From the NCBI GenBank assembly GCA_026929865.2, contig CM049397.1, positions 1,711,001-1,775,000 of the forward strand: a stretch of 64,000 bases of DNA, given 5' to 3'. Numbering within the stretch: position 1 is the stretch's first letter; each line of letters opens with the position of its first letter. The position numbers were made by a program, and so were the translations under genes. The stretch comes from Hyperoplus lanceolatus. Its lineage: Eukaryota; Chordata; Actinopteri; Uranoscopiformes; Ammodytidae. This document shows, piece by piece, positions 19,312-53,616 of this stretch. The notes beneath the pieces were generated by a model. The model was not told the origin of the DNA. It saw only the letters and a list, made by a program, of their open reading frames with translations, and did no database searches.

Positions 19312-19626
19312 TTAAGAAATGATATTGTCCAGTGCAGCCAGTGCCTCATCCAGGCCTACCACTGCCTGCATGTTTTCCCCTATGAAGGGGCCTCTGCATT
19401 TCGGGCAGTAGCTGTGGCTCTCCTGCCACTGCTCCATACAGCTGCTGCAGCCCAGGATGCTTCTGCAGCAGCTGGCAAACAGAGGCTTCTTCATAGGATC
19501 TGCATCGTACATATAGAGAATGTTTATATTAGTGTTTATATTAGCTTCGTGTACTTGTCGTGAAAGTCCCGCGGACATAGTCGTCATGTTTGGGTTCATA
19601 ATATGAGGCGCTAGCCGCCCGCACAC
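19312..19626 (-). CDS. Small RING-like Cys-rich protein, 104 aa
   Basis: The C-terminal half reads ADPMKKPLFASCCRSILGCS, SCMEQWQESHSYCPKCRGPF and IGENMQAVVGLDEALAALDN. The CC...C..C...W.....CP.C pattern is a partial RING/U-box-like zinc site, lacking a clear first CxxC pair, which may sit on an upstream exon. The N-terminal 45 residues have no recognised pattern and may be leader or UTR. It lies tail-to-tail with the integrase-like gene, 445 bases apart. I recall similar small Cys-rich tails in unnamed multicopy animal proteins, but give no function. Confidence 0.5.
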   Translation of the reverse strand: MCGRLAPHIMNPNMTTMSAGLSRQVHEANINTNINILYMYDADPMKKPLFASCCRSILGCSSCMEQWQESHSYCPKCRGPFIGENMQAVVGLDEALAALDNIIS

Positions 19627-19799
19627 AACAAGTTAACTAATGCTATACGGCGCTAACTTGTTTTATCGGCTAAAGCACAGCTACACATATTCACTGAATT
19701 AACCAGGAAGTCCATTCTCCTGGTTTACTCTCCCCACGTCTTCTAACCCCGAGCGGCTTCATACAGCACCGGGCGCCCGCAATACATTTTCCTCCTCGG

Positions 19800-21264: not shown

Positions 21265-24200
21265 CTACTCTTCAATTATTGTGGTCGGTTTCTTAAAATA
21301 GTTCAGGAAGGGGCACCATATTTTATGAAATTTAGTCTCAGATCCCTGGGTAGTGCAACAAATTTTCTCCAGATTCATACATGACATAATGTCTCTAATC
21401 CAATGTGAGTGGGAAGGAGGAGCAGGATCTTTCCATTTAAGTAAAATAGCCCTACGAGCAAGTAATGAAGTAAAGGCCAGTACCTTCAGCTTCACTTTAG
21501 GCAAGCCCGGATTTGGAGCAATGCCAAAAATTGCAGTGAAAGGGTTCGGCTCAATTTGATGCTGAAGTACTTCAGAAATTGTTTGAAAAACTGATGTCCA
21601 GAACTCAGTCAAGGTGGGACACAACCAGTACATGTGAAAGAGTGATGCCGGTGCGCTCTTACAGCTATCACAGGTCGGGTCTAACATACGAGCTAATTTA
21701 GTTTTAGATATGTGGATACGATGTACTACTTTAAATTGCACAAGAGCATGTCGGGCGCACATGGAGGTAGAGTGTATCCGATCCAGGACTGAATCCCACA
21801 TGTGATCTGTGAAGGCAGAACCTAGGTCCTGCTCCCACAGGGTTCTTATAGCTGCTAATGAGGGGCTATGCAACTTCGAAATAAGGTTGAAAAACACAGA
21901 AATTGAGCCTTTTAATGTGGGGTTTACAGAAAGAAACAAATCGACATGATTGGCTGGCGGTTTATAAGGGAATTGGGGAATTAACTTCTGTGTAAAATGC
22001 CTGATTTGCAGAAATCGGAAAAAATTTGTCTTTTCGATACCAAAATGTTTTGTCAATTGGGAAAAACTAGCAAATAGATCATTAATAAATAAATCACTGA
22101 TGCATTTTAAGCCTTTTTTATGCCAGATCTTGAATGCACCATCCACCGTCGAGGGAGTAAACAAATGATTAGCTGCAATTGGGCTGAAAAGTGAAAAATT
22201 CTGCATTCCAAAATTCTTCCTAAATTGGGTCCAGATTCGAAGGGAGTGCTTAATCACGGGACTACTGTTGGGAATAGCTGAAGAGATTGGAAGTGCGGCG
22301 CTTAAGAGGGCAGATAGAGACAATGGGCTAATAGCGCTGGACTCCATTGTTACCCAGACTGGGGCTGAGTCGTCAAGGTGAAAATGCACCCAATACACTA
22401 AAGAACGGATATGAGCAGCCCAGTAATAGTATTGGAAATTAGGGAGGGCCATTCCACCTGTTTGTTTGGGTCTTTGAAGAAATGCTTTCCTTAACCGAGG
22501 GTGTTTACCATTCCAAATATAATTTATCATTAAAGAGTCAAGGGCCTGAAAAAAGGATTTGGGGAGAAAGATGGGGAGACATTGAAATAGATATAGGAAC
22601 TTTGGGAGTAATGTCATTTTAATTTAATTTATTCTACCTATGAGAGAGAAAGCCAGAGGAGACCACTTCAATAATATTTGCTTCGCCTGATCCAATAATT
22701 TGAGGAAGTTCGATTTAAATAGGTTTTTAAAATTTCTGGTAAAACATACCCCAAGGTAACTCAGATGATCTGTCACCACTTTGAGTGGAAGAGCTGTGTA
22801 ATCAAGTTTAAGAGCTTCTTTATTAATCGGAAAGAGTTCGCTCTTGCTCAAGTTAAGTTTATAGCCAGAAAACTGACTAAAGACCTCCAACACAGAAAGT
22901 GCCTCTGGTAGGGAGGTGGCTGGCTTGGCGACAAACAAAAGTAAGTCATCGGCGTATAATGATACCTTATGTTCAATTCCTCCTCTCCATATCCCCTGAA
23001 TCTGTTTGTTACCTCTGATGGCAATCGCAAGTGGTTCGATTGCAATAGCAAAAAGGAGTGGGCTCAAAGGACAACCCTGCCGGGTCCCACGGTGCAGATC
23101 AAAACTACTTGAGTAACGGCTGTTTGTTAATACTGAGGCAGAAGGGCATGCATATAATAATTTAACCCAAGAAGTGAAAACAGGACCCAAACCGAATTTC
23201 TCAAGGGTGAAAAACAAATAATTCCATTCTACTCTATCAAATGCTTTTTCAGCATCCATAGAAGCGAGGCATTCTGATTCAATATTTCTGGGGGAATATA
23301 AGATGTTCATTAGCCGGCGGATATTATAAAATGATTGGCGTCCTTTTATAAACCCAGTTTGGTTGGGGGATATGATAGAGGGGAGGACATCCTCCAATCT
23401 GTGGGCGAGAATTTTAGCAAGTATCTTCACATCCGTATTTAATAGTGAAATTGGTCGGTATGATGCACAATCTAGAGGATCTTTATCCTTTTTTAACAAC
23501 AGGGAAATACAGGCCTGGTAGAACGAAGGCGGGAGTTTACCTGAGTCAAATGAGTCTGAGAATACTGAACATAAAAAAGGCGATAATTCGGCTGAAAATT
23601 TCTTAAAAAAGTCAGATGGAAGTCCGTCTGGACCAGGAGATTTGCCTGATTGCATAGATGTTATTGCTGCAATAATTTCCCTCTGAGTAATATGTGCCTC
23701 AAGGCTATGTCTCAGGTCTTGAGAAAGGGAAGGCATGTTTAGGTTACTGAAAAAGGTTTCCATCACCGTTACGTCTACTGTACAATCAGAACTATACAAA
23801 TTTGAATAGAATGTTTTGAACTTTTCGTTTATCAATTTCTGATCTGATGTTGTACACCCACTGTCTGTCCGTATTCCAGGGATGAGTTGCTTTGCTCTAA
23901 ATCCGCGCAGTTGGTTGGCCAGGGGTTTGCCAATCTTGTCACCATGCTCGTAAAAAGTACTTCTGCTCCTAAGCAACTGGTCAGCAACCTGACGAGAGGA
24001 AAGAAGGTTGAATTCTGTCTGAAGTTTTAAACGTTCTTTGTAAAGTTCAGATGAAGGTGAGTTAGCATATTGTCTGTCTATATTCAGAATCTGATCAGCT
24101 ATTTCAGTTTGTTTCTGTTTTGTACACTTATTTTTGTATGCTGCAAATGATATAATTTCACCTCTCAAATAGGCTTTCAGGGCTTCCCAAATTGTTGCAT

Positions 24201-25050
24201 TGGACACATCTGGTGTTTTATTTATACTCAAAAAAGTTGTAATATGTGTAGAGATGTGTGAAAGAAAACTCTCATCTGTGAGCAACAATGGATCCAGTCT
24301 CCACTGTCTTCTTGTATACTCAACTTCAGAGAAAGCCAGTTGAAGGAGCAGAGGAGCATGATCTGAGATCACAATACTTTCATACTTTCTGCATGACTTT
24401 AGGTCTGACATCAATTAATTATCAACAAAAAAACAATCAATTCGGGTGTAAGTGTGGTGGACATGTGAAAAGTATGGATATTCTCTTCCTGTGGGGTATA
24501 AAAACCTGTATGGATGAGGGAGGCTATAATCAGCAAGAAATTATTTGATATAACCTGCAGATCTGCTAAGAGTGGCAGGTTTGGGGGAAGAGCGATCTAA
24601 GACTGGATCCAGATAACAATTAAAATCCCCACCAAGAATAAGAGAATGGGAATTGAGATCGGGGAGTTGAGAGAAAAATCTCTTAAAGAATTCTACATCC
24701 TCGACGTTAGGTGCGTAGACGTTGGCCAAGATGACTGACTTATTGTAAAGTTTGCCTGAAACAATAATAAAACGTCCATTTTTGTCTGATATAATGTTTG
24801 AGGACTCAAAAGGAATATTACTATCAATAAGGATAGCTGTGCCCCTAGCCTTAGCCCTGAAATTAGAATGAAAAAATTGTCCATGCCAGCATTTACTTAG
24901 TCGCCCATGGTCAGAGTCATGTAAGTGGGTTTCTTGAAGGAAAACTATTCCAGCCCTGAGTCGTTTTAGGTGGGTTAAGACCTTACCCCTTTTCACTTGG
25001 TAATTTAGCCCCTTGACATTCCAACTAATTAAATTAAGATTGCCCTTCAT
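21265..25050 (-). pseudogene. LINE ORF2: endonuclease plus reverse transcriptase, three in-frame stops
   Basis: Encodes the retrotransposition enzyme that nicks target DNA and copies the RNA in place. It starts LNLISWNVKGLN with the endonuclease (residues 1-170; FLQETHL and GGDFNCYLD motifs), followed by the linker, then RT: SYRPISLLNTDVKILAKILA, GFIKGRQ, MDAEKAFDRVEW, TRQGCPLSPLLFAIAIEPLA and YADDLLLFV. The C-terminal part contains a Cys/His cluster, CDSCKSAPASLFHMYWLCP. The whole 1262-codon frame is continuous, with no frameshift; only three TAA stops break it, at about 24541-24543, 24421 and 22624-22626. Confidence 0.93.
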
Positions 25051-26847: not shown

Positions 26848-27603
26848 TCACACCCAGTGTAGATAAGTAGTTAGATGCTTCAGAGACAGACCGCAGCCAC
26901 TTTCTCTCGCCGCTCTGGAGAGTAATGCGAAGCCTCGCAGGGAAGAGGAGAGAGGGACGGAGACCGCGCTGATAAAGCTCAGCCATGACCCGCTTGTATT
27001 CTCGCCCTGTTTACGTGCCTCCTTCATGATCAGGTCTTTAGTCTGGTATCGGTGAAAGCGGATAACGACGGATCTTGGCCTCTCATGCGGGCCCGGTTTG
27101 GGTGCCAGAGTGCGGTGAGCCCTGTCCAGCTCCGGGGAAGAAGGGAGAACTTGACCACCAAACACCTCGACGAGGAGCTCGGAGAAAAAGGCGGTGGGGC
27201 GTGCACCCTCAAGTGACTCTGGTAAGCCCACAATACGAACGTTCTGTCTCCTGCTCCTCCCTTCCAAATCCGATAGTTTAGCTTTCAACAGCGTGTTATC
27301 TTCCTGCAGTGAGGAGCACGTAGCCTCAAGTTGCTCCAGGCGTCCGCAAACAGTTTCTGCATTCTCCTCGAGATCGGTTATATGTTTCCCCTGGCTTGAG
27401 ACCACGGCCTGGATGCTGTCCAGCTTAGCGTCCATGCTGGCGAAAGATGATTTAAACTCGGCGGCTATCGCTGCTCTATGCTGTTCAAGCAGATCCGCAA
27501 TGGAAGCAACTGAGCTAGCACCAATGTCTATGCTAACCACGCTGTCCGAGGACATATCTGACTCTGCCGAATATCTTTTTGCGTTTTTCTTGCTTCTAGG
27601 CAT
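26848..27603 (-). CDS. LINE ORF1 protein, 251 aa, intact
   Basis: ORF1 proteins of L1-type LINEs form trimers and coat the element RNA. This one starts MPRSKKNAKRYS, then has a heptad-like coiled coil (SMDAKLDSIQAVVSSQGKHI through LKAKLSDLEGRSR), then the RRM entry RRQNVRIVGLPES and ELDRAHRTL with RSVVIRFHRYQTKDLI, the Transposase_22-type core. It has no stop or shift, although ORF2 of the same copy has three stops. Confidence 0.88.
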   Translation of the reverse strand: MPRSKKNAKRYSAESDMSSDSVVSIDIGASSVASIADLLEQHRAAIAAEFKSSFASMDAKLDSIQAVVSSQGKHITDLEENAETVCGRLEQLEATCSSLQEDNTLLKAKLSDLEGRSRRQNVRIVGLPESLEGARPTAFFSELLVEVFGGQVLPSSPELDRAHRTLAPKPGPHERPRSVVIRFHRYQTKDLIMKEARKQGENTSGSWLSFISAVSVPLSSSLRGFALLSRAARESGCGLSLKHLTTYLHWV

Positions 27604-27762
27604 TTCTCCAAAACAGTATAAGTGTTACCGACAACACAAGCACAAACAAAAATCGACGAGAATAGGGTTTAATCAGTTAGGTCTGAAATATTTTGTGGGA
27701 GCTATAGAGCGATCGTGCCTACCCCATGCTCTGTAACCCGGAACTCTATGTTTTAGGTTTTT

Positions 27763-38558: not shown

Positions 38559-38932
38559 TAGCCTGGCTCTGCCCGCCCACCTACTTCCGGCCAAATTTTA
38601 TTTTCCCTTCAGTAGTCAGTCTGGGTGTACAGCCCATTTCCCAGTTTTGCTGGAGATTCGACAGCCGGTCCAATCAGCGAACAGAGCGAGTGGCTGAGAA
38701 CGATGACGTCGAAGTCGCGCTCCAGTTTCAGTTGCCAGAAGCCGGCTCATGACACACGTGACGACCAAACGTTATGCGATTGGTTGGCTAATCCAGAGTG
38801 GCACTGGGCAGAACCAATAGTTTTAAACTTTAACAGACACCCGCCTCCATGAGTGAACGTTTGCCAATTACAGCACTGCCAGACCTTCTGTACAAATTAA
38901 ATGAAGTACGATGGTCTGGTAGCACCAGGCTA
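38559..38932. mobile_element. MITE with tagcctgg ends (374 bp)
   Basis: tagcctgg at the left and ccaggcta at the right. accattttg (9 bases) flanks both sides exactly (38550-38558, 38933-38941), which means an 8-9 bp target duplication and a hAT-like mover. No transposase. Confidence 0.8.
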
Positions 38933-41775: not shown

Positions 41776-42204
41776 ATATTGTTTTTTTATGCATAATACA
41801 GACTGTCCCAGATTAGAGCAAACATATTTCCGTGAGCAAATTTGCACATGGACCACTAATATATGTGCCATTTCTGAATTATTTCTTCTGCTTATAGGCG
41901 GCTGCATATATGAAAAAAAACACCTAACCCTAAAAAAATTCTAACAAAAGGTTTCTCAGCTGTTTTTTTGTAGTATTAGGTGTCCTTAATAACATTCTAA
42001 AAGTTTACCAAAATTTGACCACTAGAAAGGGGTAATTTTCAAGATGGCGTCCAAGATGGGCAGTAAGAGGTAAGGTAATACACAATGCATCCACTATAGA
42101 TGTTTTTGAGTATAAAAGTGGAATTATACTAAACCCAACAAACTAAATTCACAATTATCAGCGATTCAGAAGATGGTGGAAGATAATATTGACCTTTGAT
42201 ATTG

Positions 42205-45200
42205 CTTTTGGCTAAAGGGCCATAGCCAATTTTTCCTATGGCACCAGTGGCGGCCATTTTAAAAATGGCAGCCGACGGTCGTTATTTTGCATGTAGCTTG
42301 GGTTCTAGACCACCTAGGATCTTGGTTCTGGTGGCTAATCCTACATTTTCAAGGATGAGGAAGACATTGGCGCTATTTAAAACATGCTGGAAACTACTTA
42401 AGTACATATACCTGGCATTCAGGGAACAAAATTAAGGCAAAACCATTGAATATTAGCAGAATTTTACATATTTTCCAGTACCAGGCAAGGTAAATTGCCA
42501 GCAGTAACTTTTCCTCACATCAAGTTGTATGAAACACCCTAAATACATTTGCATAAACATCAATTGAAAATTAAAAAATTTACCTAATCCTACTTTTACA
42601 GCAATGAGAAATGCAGAGGTACTATTGACAACATTCTACTAACTACATAATAACATATATCTGGCATTCAGGGAATTCAATAACTATAAAATAATTAACA
42701 CATTTATAATTATTTCAGAAAAAACAGCCCACGACAGTGGCAGAGGGCATTGCACTGTCCACTGCACCCCTTTGTGAATCCACAGCAGAGGAGTTCACAA
42801 CAGGCCTGTATCGATCCTGGTATTGTAGCCCAGTGAACTTCCCATCCACCTGTGGCCTTCCACTTCCACCCCCATTCACCTGGTGACATTGAGGGGCTGC
42901 AAGCATCATCTGTCCCAATCATTGGCCAGCTTGGTAGGCACTGGCAGCCCCCTTCTGTGTTGCATCAGTGCTGCTTTTGTTGGGGGGGTCCCTAAATGGT
43001 TATACCTTTCTGGGTGAAGAGCTGCTCGTGCGCCTGATTAACTGATTCCTGGCTGCTAGTGCAGTCATACAGCAATAACACAAATCACTCTAGAGGCTCC
43101 ATCCAGTTGTCTATGGAGTAAGCCAAGACACAGAAGGGTCTCTTGATGTCATCAAAGCTCCTCCGTGCTGTCTTAGTCCCTGTCACCAAAAGATGACGGT
43201 GTAACAACCAGTACATGCTTTGAACCCTGGTCAGGCTACACATTGATCTGGACCTAGTGCCCTCACCATCTCATGAGCATCTAAATACCAAAAACTCTTC
43301 CCAGAACACAGAACTCATTTATGTTAAGGGATTTGGCTGCTGTCACTGCCAGTAATGGCACATCTGTGTCAACTGTGCATAGACACATTGGTATACCCTT
43401 CCTTCACATTATCTCCTAGGTACAGTGGGGTGATTTTTAGTGTTGAGGGCTGTCACACCAGTTGCCAGGAAGGAGTACAGTTCAGTGCAAAACTTTGGAC
43501 AGTTTTCAAGAATGGAACAGGATGGCTCATCGCATTTACTAACTCCCTTCCCTCTCTTGCTAGCATTGCTGCAGGGTTGAGGCAATAATCTGCTTGTGGT
43601 CCTAGTCAATGGCATTGGCTAAGAAGAAGATATCTAACACTGTTCATCAACTATTTCCAGCTGCAGGGTGATGGATCAGAAGTGAAACTTGGGACATGAC
43701 ACAGCTCTTTCAGTGCACCTGTCTAGGGATGTATGATGGTTCCCTCCTCCAGGTCATTGATGTGTCAGTGTAGTTCTGCTGCAGGAGAAGATATAGGATG
43801 CTGGCTGTGACCTGATGAGCATGGCAGGTACGTGTCACTTTGGAGACTTTCAGAAAGGGATCTATTGTCCCAGCAGTAGCAACTCCAGCTTGTACATGTG
43901 CTTCTGTCCCCTTGCTATCCTCAAAGAGGGCGTCAATTACCTTTAGTGCTGACATCTCAATGTCAAATCCCGCAAATATCACAATTAAGTGATCTTCACC
44001 TTGAATTGCTGGAAAGCTCCACATTTACAAGTTCTGTGGAGATGTCTGGCACCCGATCTTAAGAAATGCACACAGCACCAGGTCAAAAAGGATGTCCACA
44101 AGGGCTCGTTTGCGGGTCCTCGTATGGATCATGATGCCCAGGTATATGGGCTATGTTGTCTCCCGGTCTTGGCTGTGCCTGATGGAAGACCGACATGTTT
44201 TGGAAATCTCCCTCTGGCGTACCAAACTGTTGTACATGATAGGGTGAGAGGGTGAGGGGCTGGTTGAGGCATAAACATAGAGCTGTTTTGACCTGTGATG
44301 TTTGTGCCATACAACACCATGGAAACTAGTGTTGAGAGTGAAACTGGCTCTGACTCCTCCTAGCATCCTCCTCATTGTCAGCATCGTGCTCACATGCTTT
44401 CCCCAATGCGGCACCAAAATCCTCATTGCACATGAGGGCAACGTCATAACCTTGCTTGTGAGCATCCATGTCTGGGATGTAACTCAGTATTCTATTTTTT
44501 AAGGAGTGGACAGGCCCCTTCACATACATTTCTAGTTATTCCAGCTTGGTACTGTACAGATTCACTAGGTTGGTTACGCTGCACATTGGTGCTACAGGTG
44601 ATTCTCTATGCGCGCCATGGTTAACATCGTCTATGTTATATTTTGTGCTTTCTTGGATCTCACTCTATTGTACAGAGAGAGAAGACACAGAGTTTGGTAC
44701 TTGGCAAAGAGGTCTACAAAGTTTGTTGAGTAGGGGTTTGTGCCAAAGCAAAATTAGATGAACATTTCGGCAGAGAATGTGTGTCTTCCTGACACAGAAC
44801 ACATTTGTTCCAGGCCATTGGCAAGGCACTCTGATCTTTCTGGCTCATTAGGATCCACCACCTTCAATAGTTTGGCCATGGTCCCTCAAGGCACTATGCT
44901 ACATGAGGACAATATGTACTAGTTCTAGCACCACCACTCCACCATACGCTGAACCAGAAAAGTATGACATACGTCACTACAGTCACATGGGAGAGCAGAG
45001 GTAACTGCATCAGACAAGTCCATTCCTGTTTATGCAAATGTATTTGGGGTGTTGTATACAACTTTATGTGAGTAAAGGTTTCTGCTTGAAACTTACCTTG
45101 CCTGGTACTTACTTTGTGGTTACAGTTTATACCACTAAGCTCTTTAGGAACCCATAGCTGTTTACTCAGCTATAGCAATTACACCACTCAAACAGGCAAA

Positions 45201-45560
45201 TACAATGTATTGGTCAGGCTCTTGAATAGATATATGTTAACATAAGAGGTCTACACACACAACTCCTGGAATAATTCTGTAATTCAGGAAAATATGTAAT
45301 ATTCCGCTAATATTCAATGGTTTTACTATAATTTTGCTCCCTGAGTGCCAGGTGTATGTACTAAAGTAGTTTCCAGCATGTTTTAAATAGTGCAACTGTC
45401 TTCCTCATCCTTGAAAATGTAGGATTAGTCACCAGAACCAAGATCCTAGGTGGTCTAGAAACTAAGCTGCATGTAAAATAACGACCGTAGGCGGCCATTT
45501 TAAAAATGGCCGCCACTGGTGCCATAGGAAAAGTTGGCGGTGGCCTTATAGCCAACAATT
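42205..45560 (-). mobile_element. Unclassified 3.3 kb element with about 280 bp terminal inverted repeats
   Basis: 42205-42487 and 45278-45560 are reverse complements at roughly 90 percent, including blocks ctaggatcttggttctgg, tttaaaacatgctggaaact and aaaaccattgaatattagc. A second matched pair lies further in (42480-42560 against 45030-45112), with about 150 extra bases in the right arm. Both arms hold the near palindrome gccattttaaaaatggc. Inside is a decayed minus-strand coding region. No target duplication is found; the right side abuts an L2-like LINE. This is a DNA transposon or a large inverted duplication; the superfamily is unknown to me. Confidence 0.8.
43710..44529 (-). pseudogene. 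Ruined unknown protein inside the long-TIR element
   Basis: Several minus-strand frames each stay open for 65-105 codons and hand over to one another, as in a gene with frameshifts. Readable blocks in order: SYIPDMDAHKQGYDVALMCN, EDFGAALGKACEHDADNEED, SFTLNTSFHGVVWHK, DFQNMSVFHQAQPRPGDNIA, DRVPDISTELVNVE and KVTRTCHAHQVTASILYLLL. The DRV.(D/E)ISTEL block reminds me of an uncharacterised multicopy protein family found in fish and invertebrates. I cannot name a domain or a catalytic triad. Confidence 0.5.
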
Positions 45561-45599
45561 GTCCTTGGGGCATGCTCTAACAGTGGGCCAAAACTCATG

Positions 45600-47459
45600 T
45601 GTGTATCATCAAAACCACAATTCCTTCATATATTGCACCTATCTGCTGGACTTAAAGGAGTAATGGCCACTTTAAGGCTGCATAAGCGTCTGCCTGACGG
45701 CAGCAGGGTGAAGAGGCCAGCATCTGGGTGAGAGGCGTCTTGCCTGATTTTCCTGGCTCTTGCCCTCACCCTCTTGCTGTATGTACATTCCATGGTGGGG
45801 AGGGGTAGCCTGATGGTTCGCTCTGCTGAGCGCACCACCCTCTGCAGGGCAGCCTGGTCGCGTGCAGTGCAGCCTCCATACCAGGCTGATATGCAACCTT
45901 TGAGGATGCTCTCCACAGCCGCAGAGTAGAAGGTCCTCAGGATGGAGGGGGAGACCTTGAACTTCCTCAGCCACCGAAGGAAGTACAGCCGCTGCCTTGA
46001 CTTGGAGACCAAGTGTTGTGTATGGAGAGACCAAGAGAGGTCCTGAGTGAGGTGCACCCCCAGGTACTTGAAACTGGGGACCCTCTCCACGGGATCCCCA
46101 CTGATGATGAGTGGGGCGAGCCCACTGCCCTGCTTCCTCCTGAAATCCACCACCATTTCCTTGGTTTTCTTGATATTTAGGCCAAGGTTGTTGGTCTGAC
46201 ACCAAAGTGCCAGGTCTGCCACTTGGTCCAGGTAGCCCTGCTCGTTGTTTCCAGTGATAAGACCCAGCACCACGGTGTCATCGGCGAACTTGATGATGGA
46301 GGTTGAGCTGCTGGAGGCTATGCAGTCATGCGTGTAAATGTTGTAGAGCAGTGGACTCAGAACGCACCCCTGGGGGGTACCCGAGTTGAGGATCAGGGGT
46401 CCTGATACTACACCTCCTCCTACTCTGACCACCTGGGGGCGATCAGTGAGGAAGCTGAGCACCCAGTTACACATTTGGGTGTTGATTCCCAGCGACCTCA
46501 TCTTCTGGATCAGGCGAGAGGGAACTATGGTATTGAATGCCGAGCTGTAATCTATAAACAGCATTCTCACATAATTCCCTCTCCTCTCATCAAGGTGGGT
46601 CAGAGAGGTGTGTAAGAGATTGCAGATGGCATCATCCCTGCTCCTGTTTTCCCTGTATGCAAACTGGAGGGTGTCAAATTAACTGGGCAGGGAGGAACTG
46701 ATGCAATTCTTTATCAGCTTCTCAACACATTTCATCACTGTTGATGTCAGGGCCACAGGACGATAATCATTCATGCATGATGGGTTATTATTTCTTGGCA
46801 CAGGGATTATGACAGAGTGTTTAAAGCAGGATGGAACGACAGCTTGGGCCAGGGATGTGTTAAAGATGTTAGTATACACTGGGGCTAGTTGGTTTGCACA
46901 GGATTTTAGGACCCTCCCAGGAATCTGGTCCGGCCCTGCAGCCTTTTTCCCATTCACAGCCTTGAAGACCCTCCTCACATCACTCTCAGTGACAATGAAT
47001 GGGGTTTCCCTGGCCTTTGCCATTTCCTCTGCCATATCTTCAGTGAAGTTGTTTTTACCCCAGTCTGTCTCAAACTGTGCATAAAAAGAATTTAATTCAT
47101 CAGCAAGAGATGGGGCAGAGCTACTTACCGAACAGGGCTTTTTCTTGAAGTCGGTCATAATCCGCATGCCCTTAAGGACAAAGTGGAAGCCGATTTCAAT
47201 ATGGGTGACCCTGCACACACTTGTGCAGGGTCACCTTATATCGCTGCTTTGCCTCTTTTACAGTCCTTCTTAAGCCATAGGCTGCAACTTTATATCCAAT
47301 CATGTCACCTGAAATGATCCCGGCATTATAAGCGGAAGTCCGGGCTGTTAATGCTGCCTTGACAGTTCCATCTACCCATGGCTTCTGATTTGGGAAGACT
47401 TTTATTTTGACAGCCTGTATGGTCTCACAGTATAGCAGATTGACGTAACTACCAACCAC
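45600..47459 (-). mobile_element. 5'-truncated L2/CR1-type LINE
   Basis: Minus-strand ORF2 part: VKAALTARTSAYNAGIISGD (RT N-terminal linker), GPDQIPGRVLKSCANQLAPV, YRPVALTSTVMKCVEKLI, then [47 protein letters not shown] and the C-terminal [12 protein letters not shown]. The RT box is FADDT. One frameshift lies near 47200, and one in-frame TAA at 46679 splits the rest; otherwise 46570-45626 is a long open piece. The endonuclease domain is missing. Confidence 0.93.
45626..46570 (-). pseudogene. LINE reverse transcriptase, palm to C-terminus
   Basis: A 314-codon open stretch from [13 protein letters not shown] to [12 protein letters not shown]. It carries the RT catalytic motifs A (FIDYSSAFN) and C (FADD), the thumb block [15 protein letters not shown] and the C-terminal SGRR motif. 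Same frame as 47218-46679, separated only by a stop, so the parent ORF was longer. Confidence 0.9.
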
Positions 47460-51715: not shown

Positions 51716-53616
51716 GCTGTGAAAGAGGCAAAGCAGTGGGTGTGGGAGAAGACATGGAGTAGAGATTTTGGTCAGCACCAAAGAGTTTCTAGAAATACAT
51801 TTGGCACCTCAGGAGGGGTAAACGCTGAACCATCCGAGCTCTGTACGGTAAAGTTGACATGCTATTGAGGAGGTACTCGTACCGTTTGTCCCCTTAAAAG
51901 AAATGTGTGTCCACAACATAGTTATCTCGTTTCCACACCAAGCAATATCGTTTTTTCCCTAAATGTCACCATCGGCATCTATTTTTTTTAACGTCAGAAA
52001 ATTGAAGATGTTTACAATTGTATATGGTTATGTGTAATATACCTACTATTGTAAATATATTCACCTTGAGTGAAGATATCCATTTGTCTCAGGATAAAGA
52101 CATAAAATGTTTAGCCACTGGAATCATGATTCTAGGTAATTTAGGAGGCAAGACATTAATTAAGAAACCAGCGTTTGAAGGTCACCATTTTTGAAAAGAT
52201 GGCCACCATATTGGCGTCCGTGAAAATGGAATCATGCATTTTCTGTGTGATTTTTGTTTCTTTATGAAGTTTACTAAAATAAAAAGTTTTCAAAATCCCC
52301 CTCAAAAATTCTTACGAATCCTTTTTTTGGACATACTGAATTGGACTAAAATAAACTAAGCATCCTTTTGGTATCTGGGGAAATTTTGACTTTTCCAAAC
52401 CCTCATAGAAGCTACTTATGGAGACTTTGGAAATGGTCATCACGTCGCATTTAAATAACCTCTCACTGCTCTACTCCTTCCACATCAATAGAGAAAGGGT
52501 TTGAGAACTGGTTCATGTCCTTCTCTTTGGCAGTGCAACCTTTAAAAGTGCCATATACATTCTTTGATGAATGATGAGAGCAACATTTGGGAAACTGGAG
52601 ATCATTTCTTGCAGAGTTGCGATATGTGCAGCGTTATCCCTCAATCAGTCAAAGATTGAAAACAAATGAATCATGTGATCATACATTTGCAACTGAAGCT
52701 CATCATTTTTTCTTGCAAGCATCTGTCCAGTTGGACAGTGAGATCAAGTAAAAAAAAGTGAGATTTGCCAACCAGCTCCACCTCCAACACATGATTCAGC
52801 TGGCTCTGGTGCCTTTCACAAAAGAAACACACAAATAAATGAAATGTTGAAATGACTCATGGGCCATAGAATATGGGCTGCACACAATTAGTTTGGACTC
52901 CCAATACACAGTATATATATATAATGCGACTGTTAGGAAATGTCTGCAGAGAATAGAATGTGATGACACTGACAGAACAGGACTCTATTGAAGAAAGGTG
53001 ATGCTGATCTCAGCAGCTCAACACTCACTTCTCACCGCTCCCCTTTCGGCTGTGTCAATCTTTTAGATGTAACACATTGTGCACAGGCTTTCATTATGTG
53101 TAGAGCAATGTTTTTCTCTTCACCGCAGATTGATGCTCCTCCGTATTTTATAGTAGTGTTATTGATTAGCACTGTGCTTGTCAGTGGTGCATAAAATTAA
53201 CACTGTGTTATAGGGGCATGGATTTCTGTCAGTCTTTGACAAGATAACCCATTATTGGATGACCGCTTCTAATTTGTTTTTGTTTATTCAGTAGTATAAC
53301 GTAGCATTCAGCCGGCCCCAATAATAAGTCTATTACCTGCAAATCCTTGTCGCAGCATCAGCGGCCACTAATCTTTGCTGCTCCTAATTACATGGCCTTA
53401 ATTAACCAATCTTTACCCCATTTTACCTGCTTAATGCTGCACTCAACCAAACTACATTAGTTTAACTGCCTGCGATTTGCTGAATAGAAGTTTCCAGTTC
53501 TCCTCTACAGAAAGCTTCAATTGTATAGGCTGCATACAAAAAACTATCTATTCACTATCTATTCATTTATAGATATAGGTTTTTTAAATGTTATATTATG
53601 AAGCATGGGAGAAAAT
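51716..53616. other. Intergenic; possible relative of the 42 kb element
   Basis: 52160-52330 includes aaaagatggccaccatattg and tggcgtccgtgaaaatgg, followed by gaagtttactaaaat, in a layout like that at 42010-42055 (agtttaccaaaatttgacc, tttcaagatggcgtccaag). No gene recognised. Confidence 0.4.

Follow-up and report, generated by a model that had tools for sequence, protein, structure and literature searches.

Does a stretch of about 3.3 kb in the genome of Hyperoplus lanceolatus, closed at both sides by very long inverted repeats and holding the ruins of a coding region, belong to a kind of mobile element that has not been described? The question arises from a window of 64,000 nucleotides on contig CM049397.1, the whole stretch of DNA analysed here, in which a preliminary description had delimited such an element at 42205..45560. 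The answer depends on where the element really ends, on its copies elsewhere in the genome and on the protein that it once encoded.

Extent and Structure of the Element

The long inverted arms, and the second pair lying inside them, are real. The inverted-repeat search of the window returned core arms of 269 nt, 91% complementary, an inner pair of 91 nt at 86%, and a direct repeat by which part of the left arm (42335-42447) recurs at 42584-42696 with 72% identity. The limits first proposed are too narrow. Twenty copy regions from elsewhere in the genome were examined (L029-L048) and the alignment to the window was extended for 11 of them. Eight (L036, L037, L039, L040, L041, L043, L044, and L048) align with the window from 41888-41896, so that the element starts about 310 bp to the left of 42205; seven of the eight reach 45675-45677, and L040 extends only to 45480. 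The alignment of L047 starts at 42048, and L031 and L032, which belong to a second group of copies (group A, the window being of group B), match the window only internally.

At 41895 the end-motif search found the left end, TAGGCGGCTGCATATATG, with TTA just outside, and homology to other genome copies spans from there to 45677, where it ceases and a LINE with a reverse transcriptase starts. The right end, which in other group B copies is TAGTCAGCTGCAGATATG on the reverse strand, is absent from the window: when the terminal 157-160 bp from three copies were searched against its whole length, the sole strong match was the left outer end at 41927-42048, which recurs inverted, at 78-82%, where three other copies have their right end. 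Since the right end of the window copy is lost, its own target duplication is unreadable. The features are as follows.

41895..45677, minus strand (that of the gene): transposon remains, right end lost (copy alignments and end motif at 41895)
41895..42205, plus strand: outer left end (copy alignments, end motif, right-end search)
42208..42476, plus strand: left core arm (inverted repeat, 91%)
45287..45555, minus strand: right core arm (inverted repeat, 91%)
42477..42567, plus strand: inner arm, left (inverted repeat, 86%)
45019..45109, minus strand: inner arm, right (inverted repeat, 86%)
42584..42696, plus strand: second copy of 42335-42447 (direct repeat, 72%)
42779..44812, minus strand: ruined gene in eight blocks (tblastn with 13 protein pieces of the longer copies)
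45678..47230, minus strand: LINE fragment outside the element (RVT_1, E=1.5e-23; outer limit from ORFs)
52104..52208, minus strand: probable arm-core relic, related to 42248-42349 (alignment against shuffles)

The relic listed last corresponds to a related segment that had been suspected at 52160-52330. A related segment is indeed present; it lies on the minus strand at 52104-52208, overlapping the suspected place only in part. Its alignment with the arm stretch 42248-42349 scores 34, where 100 simple letter shuffles gave at most 26, and it was also weakly matched in a separate comparison (38 bp, 76%, E=0.053); on the plus strand of the 52-kb segment no arm match was found (23 against a shuffle maximum of 31). 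It probably represents an ancient remnant of an arm of this type.

Other features of the window were recorded in passing, in part from a Pfam scan of window ORFs (9 of 51). The LINE adjoining the lost right end carries RVT_1 (1.5e-23) within 45629-46678 on the minus strand, with ORFs at 45626-46678 and 46679-47230. A further LINE at 21265-25050 (minus strand) has two long ORFs, one of 596 aa with RVT_1 (3.2e-39) and one of 169 aa with Exo_endo_phos (3.4e-10); a 258-aa ORF at 26848-27624, for which Pfam gave no match, may be the first ORF of this LINE. The ORF at 19315-19632 (minus strand) shows a sub-threshold zf-RING_2 match (5.8e-4; 20.5 bits, the cut-off being 27.3).

Copies in the Genome and Target Site Duplications

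The copy searches covered the 807-Mb genome in 527 contigs. The left arm was matched at at least 40 places, its own included (40 of 40 scored, from 351 first-look candidates), and the core gene region likewise at at least 40, its own included (40 scored, from 129 candidates). The same arrangement of arms and core recurs together in other copies on different contigs. In group A, five complete copies (L031-L034 and L042) measure 5716-5981 bp, have arms of about 0.9-1.0 kb that are 93-99% identical (BLAST) and begin TAGTCTAGATGGAAGAATAGG; the right end of L042 has TG in place of TA. L045 is a shorter relative in this group, of 3385 bp, with arms of 203 bp and the same ends, while L029 is larger because of a nested element. 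The latter, named by eye as Ty3/gypsy-like, occupies L029:3573-8271 within the group A transposon and has ORFs of 778, 572, and 220 aa. Over the core, the window is 81.5-85.6% identical to group A (L032 and L034; BLAST). Separately, the window holds at 38559-38932 a repeat that aligns over 382 columns, at 74% identity, with L032:3813-4150, a stretch nested within the L032 transposon of group A.

The end motifs were searched in 21 sequences (the window and L029-L048) with 4 mismatches allowed, or 6 for the longer motif, and three further matches were dropped as chance or self-overlap (window 37480, L032 8892, L037 2118). Both ends are present in 13 of the 21 sequences, and 12 of these 13 copies are flanked by three identical bases: TAT, ATA, CTA, CTG, TAT, TAG, GTG, TGT, GGA, AGT, GTA, and GTA. 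It is thus the length of the duplication that recurs among copies, and not the sequence of the site. The flanks of L042 differ (CTA/GTC) and form no matching duplication; in the other eight sequences (the window, L029, L030, L035, L037, L038, L046, and L047) one or both ends are missing from the stretch examined. The ends begin TAG in both groups and read TAG...CTA. The first impression, that of a mobile element whose inverted repeats are very long, is borne out by the number of copies, by the ends that they share and by their 3-bp duplications.

The two groups differ in what surrounds the core. The outer ends occupy about 540 bp in group A and 310/118 bp in group B, and the outer 540 bp of the former are unlike the outer ends of the latter, both scores being 20 where the shuffled means are 21.8 and 19.5. 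When longer stretches are compared, 700 bp of A with 340 bp of B, the score rises to 45 against a shuffle maximum of 33, which we attribute to the shared core beginning there. As judged from these alignments, a single dead core occurs with outer ends of two kinds, unrelated to each other and both working. An unlikely reading of this arrangement is that the lineage exchanged its outer ends, each set remaining capable of insertion with 3-bp duplications, possibly following different transposases, and may constitute an undescribed superfamily with long arms. Should such an exchange over a single core be confirmed, it would be relevant to the way in which non-autonomous elements change from one transposase to another.

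The Broken Gene

Eight of 13 protein pieces taken from group A were found in the window by tblastn (E<0.05), all on the minus strand and running from 44812 to 42779, and pieces M2-M6 were not found there at that threshold. The blocks, at 44812-44643, 44542-44371, 44359-44248, 44150-44040, 44006-43827, 43376-43305, 43162-42983, and 42981-42779, are colinear with the longer copies and lie in changing frames. The two protein blocks noticed at first are therefore present on the minus strand as described, and both belong to this single broken protein. Between the last two pieces the same one-base offset is found in L031, L036 and the window; the place of that frame shift, unlike the offset, is partly set by the choice of pieces.

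A search of the genome with the arm, as had been suggested, yielded copies and 3-bp duplications, and none of the copies examined had an intact gene. The longest ORFs reach 132 residues in L032, 157 in L034 and 141 in L029 without its nested element. Among the ORFs listed (at least 110 residues, up to six per copy, 12 copies) the longest has 160 residues, apart from those of L038 and L047, which run up to 239 residues and were judged by eye to be wholly or partly inserted elements. No autonomous partner was seen.

Profile searches of the protein gave little. Seven fragments returned three weak Pfam matches far below cut-off (DUF2589, 0.067; TILa, 0.11; TetR_C_25, 0.11), and a joined piece of 217 residues across the supposed nuclease had no Pfam match. 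The single match by sequence in PDB was to a calcium-binding protein (E=1.6). For an Academ-type DDE transposase the broken gene drew no support from Pfam, and for an XPG-type nuclease none from Pfam or PDB. Scans of viral contigs gave 2, 27, and 36 pattern matches and a scan of a genome contig collection gave 599, none of them confirmed; animal transposons are not expected in either.

The substitutions between groups A and B, followed over seven surviving blocks in 16 comparisons, show no strong excess at third positions. By codon position, the window differs from L031 at 26/343, 31/344, and 31/344 sites, and the steepest gradients are those of L036 against L031 (20, 24, 29) and L037 against L031 (30, 28, 37). 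Because there is no strong codon-position bias between the groups, the gene was probably dead before they split, and the mild gradient in some comparisons, such as L036 against L031, may leave room for a short period of constraint.

Age and Recent Movement

L043 and L044, on different contigs, are 99.4 and 99.1% identical in two long stretches, and among the ORFs listed neither has a frame of at least 110 residues on the gene strand. That two copies so alike, at about 99%, are both broken argues for movement in trans. Moreover, L024, which is the same place as L043, is 99.5 and 99.3% identical to L026 and 99.4 and 98.7% identical to L027; its comparisons with L025 and L028 returned no alignment, probably as only one strand was compared. 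From these identities, the family has moved recently, probably without a protein of its own.

The divergence between the arms of the window copy tells little about its age. Eight left and seven right core arms of group B were compared, pieces under about 180 bp being dropped. With L037 set aside, left arms are mutually 95.7-99.6% identical and right arms 92.9-99.3%; those of L037 are more diverged, at 92.1-94.8%. The left and right arms of one and the same copy are 88.4-94.7% identical (7 copies). The 91% arm identity in the window is, on this comparison, largely inherited, and it cannot date the window copy, the arms of the two sides having diverged already before the spread of group B. Group A arms are not clearly sorted by side, with 98.4-99.5% within L031/L032/L042 and 94.7-96.4% within L033/L034. 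A multi-kilobase non-autonomous family thus seems to have gone on multiplying long after its gene had died, and arm divergence in one copy is shown not to date that copy.

How such spreading might proceed can be outlined. An autonomous element elsewhere in the genome would supply the transposase in trans; the enzyme would recognize the ends and excise the element, and insertion at breaks staggered by 3 bp, as the duplications suggest, would generate the flanking 3-bp repeats. If the element's own gene was broken before groups A and B separated, only the ends would have been kept under selection. The internal repeats of the arms could serve as binding sites for the transposase.

Classification

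We consider it likely that 41895-45677 is a degenerate non-autonomous cut-and-paste transposon, moved in trans, whose gene was broken before the separation of groups A and B, and that it belongs to Academ, in the AcademX nuclease lineage; the Academ-like placement as such is held with moderate confidence. The KACEHDADN, TD.PLLAV, and FTGCDT blocks resemble what we take to be a widespread transposon protein of fish and invertebrates that has an XPG/FEN1-like region and is rich in cysteine at its end. The region from TD.D to FTGCDT is presumably the XPG/FEN1-like one, and the blocks are, on the same assumption, extensively like Academ-associated proteins. Such a nuclease-like C-terminus would, together with the lengths of duplication and element, point to AcademX. 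No relevant work joining Academ with XPG was found in the literature, and nothing was found on long-arm Kolobok elements in teleosts. The element does not look like a new kind; it seems to form a new family, which may well be unnamed, within a superfamily described before.

It is doubtful that the element, again as a non-autonomous one, comes from another superfamily that leaves 3-bp duplications, namely Zator, PIF/Harbinger, or CACTA. The duplication length seen here would suit all three, since Harbinger and CACTA elements also make 3-bp duplications. The Harbinger target is the 3-bp TWA (TAA/TTA), and the left flank of the window does read TTA, though the right side is lost; TAA and TTA are both absent from the 12 duplications, however, and PIF/Harbinger was rejected. 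CACTA/EnSpm elements begin CACTA or CACTG, whereas the ends here read TAG...CTA, beginning TAG in both groups, and this candidate was rejected as well. We know of no long arms in Zator.

About as doubtful is a genuinely undescribed superfamily, whose marks would be its long arms, the TAG...CTA ends, duplications of 3 bp and a protein that belongs to no known family. In its favor are the protein fragments, for which neither Pfam nor PDB gave support, and the arms of five copies in group A, which measure 0.9-1.0 kb. To our knowledge, however, Pfam has no Academ model, which makes the Pfam miss weak evidence, and the resemblance that we assume to Academ proteins is extensive. An undescribed superfamily is unsupported, duplication and length both fitting AcademX. 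Finally, it is hardly credible that two unrelated repeats were inserted by chance in opposite orientation round a decayed gene: the arms and core recur together on different contigs with shared ends and 3-bp duplications, the copies examined exclude arms without shared ends, and the element is therefore a DNA transposon.

Comparison with Known Systems

Long inverted arms are shared with Mutator-like elements, for which long terminal inverted repeats are described (PMC3310237). In the part of PMC10045372 that treats duplication lengths, the IS256/MuDR group is given 4-10 bp, in contrast to the 3 bp found here, and Mutator was rejected; the same part gives Zator 3-bp duplications, a point of likeness. 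Compared with Academ, the copies described here differ in that no intact gene was seen among them, and may differ in their arms, of about 0.9-1.0 kb in group A or with a 0.3-kb core in group B. The 5716-5981 bp of group A are near the average of 5565 bp given for curated bivalve Academ elements in the relevant section of PMC10294476, although L045, with the same ends, has just 3385 bp. The superfamily is reported in teleosts, namely zebrafish, medaka, and stickleback, and not in tetraodon, within the excerpt of PMC4746887 concerned. Furthermore, AcademX is assigned duplications of 3-4 bp and AcademH of 9-10 bp, lengths that the authors tie to the encoded nuclease or helicase (PMC10045372), and the 3-bp duplication found in 12 of 13 copies falls within the AcademX range.
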